Assembly: GCA_017409025.1 (NCBI GenBank)
Contig: JAFQTN010000007.1
Location: forward strand, 1 to 64,000
Length of the DNA: 64,000 nucleotides
Direction of reading: 5' to 3'
DNA from: Bacilli bacterium
Lineage (GTDB): Bacteria > Bacillota_I > Bacilli_A > RF39 > UBA660
Shown in pieces: positions 57,267-57,515 of this stretch; the first letter of the stretch is position 1; every line of letters begins with the position of its first letter. The position numbers and the translations under genes are program-made. Below the pieces are notes generated by a model. It was given only the letters and a program-made list of their open reading frames with translations. It was not told where the DNA came from and did not search any database.

Positions 57267-57515
57267 ATGGAAGTTATTTTATCAAATACCGCTTTAGCTA
57301 TTGGTATAATGATAGGCTTATGTTTTTTAGGACTAGGCATTGGAGTAGGTATACTTGGAGGAAGAGTTGCTGAAGCTATTGGGAGAAATCCAGAAACTAA
57401 AAATGACGTGGTACATTCTGTAATGACAATTTTAATAATTACAGCTGTATTTTTGTTGTTCTTATTTGCTTTTTGTTTCTTATTATTGTTCTTTAATCCG
57501 TTAGTAACATACTAG
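57267..57515 (+). CDS. F-type c-subunit-like proteolipid lacking the ion-binding carboxylate
   Basis: This 82-residue hairpin of two helices is clearly related to ATP synthase subunit c. Helix 1 has the packed glycine motif [11 protein letters not shown] (residues 22-32) and the polar loop has GRNPE (39-43), matching the RQP loop. Counting 18 residues after the loop Pro, where c subunits have the essential Glu or Asp, gives Ala60 (ITAVF). Helix 2 (about 52-76) contains no acidic residue at all. A ring may form but it could not carry protons or Na+ in the usual way. AAGGAG precedes the ATG. Confidence 0.85.

Follow-up and report, generated by a model that had tools for sequence, protein, structure and literature searches.

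To our knowledge, a carboxylate in the c ring has been treated as a universal feature of rotary ATPases. The F1-like ATPases of Mycoplasma power gliding and antibody cleavage, that is surface machinery and not ATP synthesis (PMC11864180, PMC12994834), and they possess no F0 homologues (PMC3369863). Their alpha subunit is devoid of the stator-binding N-terminal helix (PMC12994834, PMC11864180), the gliding protein GliD has been proposed to originate from a b-delta fusion (PMC11864180), and a role in translocation was once proposed for these enzymes (PMC3369863). Two of them serve as comparators in this work: the Type 3 F1-like X0 ATPase (MSC_0618-0624), the partner of MIB-MIP, and the Type 2 or G1-ATPase of M. 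mobile gliding. Here we describe a gene cluster that resembles these motors in several respects and includes a c-type proteolipid from which the carboxylate has been lost. It resides in the last quarter of the window, by which we mean the whole 64,000-nucleotide stretch of DNA that was analysed, and its features are collected in Table 1. In our best explanation, to which we assign a probability of roughly 0.6, the cluster encodes an ATP-driven rotary ATPase that is uncoupled from ion transport and probably acts on surface proteins. Neither an acid-less c subunit nor a cluster of this type was found described in the open-licence literature.

Table 1 Features of the gene cluster and its candidate control sites (window coordinates)
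Feature	Position	Strand	Remarks
Sigma-70-type promoter-like site (candidate)	48974..49002	+	Perfect TTGACA-17-TATAAT, TG before -10; precedes the surface-protein genes
Giant surface protein, 1937 aa	49048..54861	+	N-terminal membrane anchor, beta-rich domain, Gly/Ser linker, fibronectin-III-like domains
Second anchored surface protein, 531 aa	54878..56473	+	N-terminal domain as in the giant protein, Gly-rich linker
Third anchored protein, 245 aa	56473..57210	+	One TM helix, all-beta extracytoplasmic domain
Sigma-70-type promoter-like site (candidate)	57200..57229	+	Perfect extended TTGACA-18-TATAAT; directly before the c gene
Ribosome-binding site AGGAG	57255..57259	+	7 nt before the c start codon; read from the sequence
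c-type proteolipid, acid-less	57267..57515	+	82 aa plus stop; Ala60 at the ion site
b-delta-like fusion (peripheral stalk)	57517..58281	+	N-terminal TM, charged helix, C-terminal OSCP-like tail; from alignment
F1 alpha-like subunit	58283..59611	+	P-loop, SVSR arginine finger, N-terminal segment retained
F1 beta-like catalytic subunit	59620..60975	+	Catalytic motifs and EELSEED retained
Epsilon-like subunit, 91 aa	60968..61243	+	Beta-sandwich part only; from position and a weak hhalign alignment
Small membrane protein, 178 aa	61245..61781	+	About 5 hydrophobic helices; possible place of subunit a
F1 gamma-like subunit (central shaft)	61798..62562	+	Pfam ATP-synt E=7.5e-20
Predicted coiled-coil protein, 640 aa	62571..64000	+	Runs past the window end to contig position 64493

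The c ORF matches Pfam PF00137 (ATP-synt_C) above the curated cut-off (E=1.7e-8, positions 1-60/60) and displays the two-helix hairpin, the Gly-rich helix 1 and the polar loop of c-type proteolipids, and all 26 matches that it obtains in a PDB sequence search are c subunits. A sequence-only reading of this gene had proposed that Ala60 occupies the position of E. coli Asp61 and that helix 2 contains no acidic residue, and both statements are borne out: Ala60 stands opposite the Glu of the chloroplast c subunit in an ungapped alignment, its distance from the loop residue Pro42 (18 residues) equals that between Pro43 and Asp61 in E. coli, and helix 2 (residues 51-76) includes neither Asp nor Glu. 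The GxGxG and RNPE motifs are likewise conserved. The membrane-embedded Asp or Glu that characterises ion-translocating F1Fo-ATP synthases is absent from this protein. Candidates for a replacement ion site elsewhere in the chain were considered and rejected; Glu36, the residue of a potential shifted site, is invariant in the family and aligns with Glu37 of E. coli at the cytoplasmic loop, while Asp47 and His50 are both located at the cytoplasmic start of helix 2 and His50 is not conserved.

The loss is common to the orthologues of related genomes, as the sequence-only reading had suggested should be checked. A scan of 84,980 species genomes, from which the Clostridia members stem, returned 21 relatives, and together with genome searches it provided 40 distinct acid-less c sequences from independent assemblies of Bacilli and Clostridia. 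The ion-site residue in these is Ser (16), Ala (12), Thr (9), Met, Val or Ile (one each), with Val in the distant member G345 and Ile in G689. Canonical c proteins from the same searches have Glu at this site, and the few that had been shortened by the automatic alignment also show the acid when read at full length. A sequencing error or a misalignment at codon 60 has nothing in its favour beyond the fact that only a single codon is concerned, and is excluded by the 40 distinct relatives without the acid and by the ungapped alignment with the chloroplast subunit; we regard its probability as practically negligible. An alignment of 19 c sequences shows little or no variation in the glycines of helix 1, the G-R-N-P-E loop and several Phe and Leu residues of helix 2. 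Comparison of the window with its nearest relatives reveals purifying selection: dN/dS amounts to 0.022 and 0.042 for c, lies at 0.07-0.10 in alpha and beta, and reaches 0.14-0.32 in the b-delta-like protein and the proteins of 178 and 245 aa. The small size of the genome (1.28 Mb) and the disappearance of subunit a would fit an ATP synthase that is decaying in a genome-reduced bacterium, but none of the other seven cluster genes measured is as constrained as c, the active-site motifs of F1 are intact, and acid-less c subunits also occur in Clostridia, G345 and G689 genomes that carry a canonical subunit a, all of which makes decay highly improbable. The c gene is a true c-type proteolipid, neither an error nor a relic.

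Subunit a (PF00119), which carries the conserved Arg of ion-translocating synthases, was found neither in the genome of the window nor in any of the 23 same-family genomes that carry the system. It is also absent from 17 of the 21 relatives' genomes; the other four, all of them Clostridia, encode a canonical subunit a elsewhere, as do G345 and G689, and in these organisms the acid-less machine therefore coexists with an apparently normal synthase. The window-type c is the only PF00137 protein in 14 same-family genomes including the window's own, and window-type alpha and beta form the only such pair in all eight same-family genomes tested, both sets comprising G613, a genome of 1.26 Mb assembled as a single contig. 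A second PF00137 match in the window's own genome (contig C16, E=0.013, below the cut-off, positions 1-33/60, within a 520-aa ORF) was judged to be due to chance and did not recur in a later search with a limit of E<=0.01. The claim of the sequence-only reading that a ring of this subunit could assemble but would possess no ion-binding site of the known type is upheld by the alignment, by the lack of a membrane carboxylate in every family member and by the absence of subunit a from the genome. No ion-translocating rotary ATPase was detected in the window's genome (G000) or in at least seven relatives, which raises the question of how these cells keep up their membrane potential. The complete 2.4-Mb genome of G345 harbours eight ATP-synt_ab genes; besides the window-type system, these represent a canonical F-type operon and, it appears, two more rotary ATPases.

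Ions could still be moved by an unusual route if the 178-aa protein were a subunit a that has diverged and the ring or the stator supplied some other group in place of the carboxylate. A multi-TM protein is indeed encoded in nearly every cluster examined, the low-confidence model of the 178-aa protein features a long helical hairpin, and several subunit-a chains appear amongst its weak Foldseek matches (E 4.6-6.5, TM 0.21-0.33); on these grounds it might be a highly diverged subunit a. The same protein nevertheless shows no detectable homology and no profile similarity to subunit a by hhalign, its helices include no conserved charged residue, and the Foldseek search yielded no confident fold, with all E-values >0.6 and all TM-scores <0.5. 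Helix 2 of c offers no conserved ionisable residue either, its site being occupied by Ala, Ser, Thr, Met, Val or Ile. We consider this route improbable. If the machine is uncoupled from ions, a ring of c subunits without the carboxylate, and without a subunit a to provide the ion half-channels, would serve as a transmembrane rotor or socket.

The catalytic part of the enzyme is well preserved. The residues required for catalysis by an alpha3 beta3 gamma complex are retained, including the P-loops, GER, SVSR and a DELSEED-type motif; alpha aligned with its E. coli counterpart displays the P-loop GDKKTGKT as well as SVSR, and the gamma-like subunit matches canonical gamma with an hhalign probability of 98.9%. 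The b-delta-like and epsilon-like proteins of the window family evolve fast and give only weak profile matches to canonical delta and epsilon, and a PDB sequence search with the profiles A2 (b-delta-like), A3 and A4 returned nothing relevant. The identities of the b-delta-like and epsilon-like proteins are settled by G345, whose cluster matches that of the window with sequences closer to the canonical ones, since its b-delta protein matches Pfam OSCP (E=9.4e-9) and its epsilon matches PF02823 (ATP-synt_DE_N; E=9.7e-11). Two relatives encode alpha-like subunits that include very long extra regions and have total lengths of 845 aa (L065:6927-9464) and 1416 aa (L066:4888-9138), and in another the beta ORF is split between two frames (L018:4812-6158), probably by an assembly frameshift.

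The cluster begins with the genes for the giant, 531-aa and 245-aa surface proteins, which are followed by c, b-delta-like, alpha, beta, epsilon-like, the 178-aa protein, gamma and the coiled-coil protein; the last of these was found in the nearest relatives only. Between positions 48800 and 64000 only two sites match the promoter consensus at 12 of 12 positions, and these candidates, identified by consensus match, precede the surface genes and the genes from c to F1, respectively. The giant protein matches fn3 (E=4.2e-8), and all three anchored proteins seem to have a homologous N-terminal domain (hhalign P 88-96%, with 95.6% for the 531-aa protein against the N-terminus of the giant one). 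The AlphaFold2 model of the 245-aa protein has a pLDDT of 89.7, and it found no confident fold match in a Foldseek search against the PDB. Relatives share essentially the same gene set, although in some lineages the 245-aa gene is located downstream and gamma stands between alpha and beta. Conservation of the cluster with its surface-protein genes extends over Bacilli and Clostridia and also to the distant genomes G345 and G689. Proteins starting GIFYGVIGVATLVVAIIGATFAYFSA adjoin several clusters (own contig C22:64587-65378, that is L006:2587-3378, as well as L008, L011, L014 and L023); they are reminiscent of fibre proteins of the TasA/camelysin type, and the two tested had no Pfam match. Further downstream on the window's contig (C22:75440-78067; L006:13440-16067) lies the gene of a secreted protein of 875 aa, parts of which resemble cadherin and dockerin.

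The proximity of very large surface proteins also lends itself to another interpretation, in which the c oligomer would not rotate but form a static socket or pore in the membrane, and a protein or polymer would be exported by the ATPase in the manner of FliI and SctN of the flagellar and type III systems. Alpha and beta do score against FliI/SctN models, and this reading would agree with the translocation role mentioned above for the Mycoplasma enzymes; they score far better against F-type models, however, the surface proteins possess ordinary N-terminal hydrophobic anchors, and the presence of gamma together with a b-delta-like stator points to torque rather than threading. We consider such an exporter unlikely.

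In the rotary ATPase that we favour, the F1 part (alpha, beta, gamma and the epsilon-like subunit) would hydrolyse ATP and turn the shaft, held still by the b-delta-like fusion, while gamma would sit on and turn a carboxylate-free c ring that has kept its packing glycines and its R-N-P-E loop. The work of the ring would be passed on to the anchored extracytoplasmic beta-domain and FN3 proteins encoded alongside, in the form of rotation, tilting or cyclic opening, and the biological task could be adhesion, motility or the handling of an extracellular target. The ring probably drives these large proteins because their genes travel with the system, a contact between the two being suggested by gene order. 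With no ion residue, no proton-channel subunit and giant surface proteins next door, ATP is probably burnt for mechanical work at the cell surface and not made. It is this operon context, comprising an intact F1, a b-delta-like stator, surface proteins and no subunit a, that turns one odd residue into a whole machine which is probably uncoupled from ions.

All members are known from genome sequences, many of them of uncultured organisms, and their hosts include gut and rumen bacteria. The distribution is patchy: the system occurs in 23 of 291 sampled same-family genomes and in 16 of 150 genera, and it is accessory because about 92% of the sampled genomes do without it. Of 392 genomes sampled across the phylum, two gave strong matches to the c profile, and G345, the third, is the divergent member. 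Annotation pipelines would score ATP synthase genes in genomes where no ion-translocating rotary ATPase was found, and reconstructions of the energy metabolism of these gut and rumen bacteria could therefore be wrong. More generally, a conserved acid-less family would amount to a separation of torque from ion transport achieved by natural evolution.

Amongst solved structures, the best sequence match to the window c is the c1 subunit of a hybrid c ring (PDB 4bem), which we take to be that of Acetobacterium woodii and whose second hairpin has Gln at the ion site in the alignment. A hybrid ring of this type still pumps Na+ because its other hairpins retain the carboxylate, whereas the acid-less c is the only c gene in the window genome. 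With canonical bacterial F1Fo-ATP synthases the system shares homologous alpha, beta, gamma, epsilon-like and c subunits and, in part, the gene order c - b/delta - alpha; it differs from them in the absence of subunit a, the lack of Asp or Glu in c, the fusion of b and delta and the inclusion of surface-protein genes. The FliI/SctN export ATPases are not the closest relatives of the window alpha and beta, for which F-type models score far higher. The resemblance to Mycoplasma Types 2 and 3 lies in the homologues of F1 alpha, beta, gamma and epsilon, the absence of subunit a and the clustering with large membrane or surface proteins. Mycoplasma clusters include no c or b homologue and encode a 12-TM protein (Protein 1) and a large 2-TM protein (Protein 5) instead; no such genes were found in the window-type clusters, and hhalign yielded no meaningful match when the b-delta-like protein and those of 178 and 245 aa were compared with Mycoplasma Proteins 1, 2 and 5, or epsilon with Protein 4. 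The window alpha and beta also fall below the curated cut-offs of NF045863 (375/600), NF045936 (310/520), NF045934 (400/570) and NF045858 (358/850).

A concatenated alpha+beta tree separates the canonical synthases (100/99) from Mycoplasma Type 3, the main family and the pair formed by G345 and G689, although long branches call for caution. With the root placed on the side of the canonical synthases, G345/G689 branch off first and leave the main family grouped with Mycoplasma (99/97), subject to the same caution, and the single-gene trees mainly agree, albeit more weakly. A single clade of all acid-less members that excludes Mycoplasma is rejected by the AU test (p=0.012), so the Mycoplasma types may nest among the acid-less members. 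Unlike Types 2 and 3, the window family retains a c proteolipid, the N-terminal segment of alpha and a b-delta-like fusion with its membrane anchor, and it is a plausible ancestor type for the Mycoplasma F1-like motors, including the stage of b and delta fusion proposed for GliD (PMC11864180). We tentatively propose, at somewhat less than even odds, that the family constitutes a previously undescribed class of rotary ATPase and, in carrier cells of the main family, the only one, in which the c ring would be a pure transmembrane drive shaft that ATP spins or tilts to drive giant fibronectin-type surface proteins, intermediate between ATP synthase and the gliding and antibody-cleavage motors of Mycoplasma.
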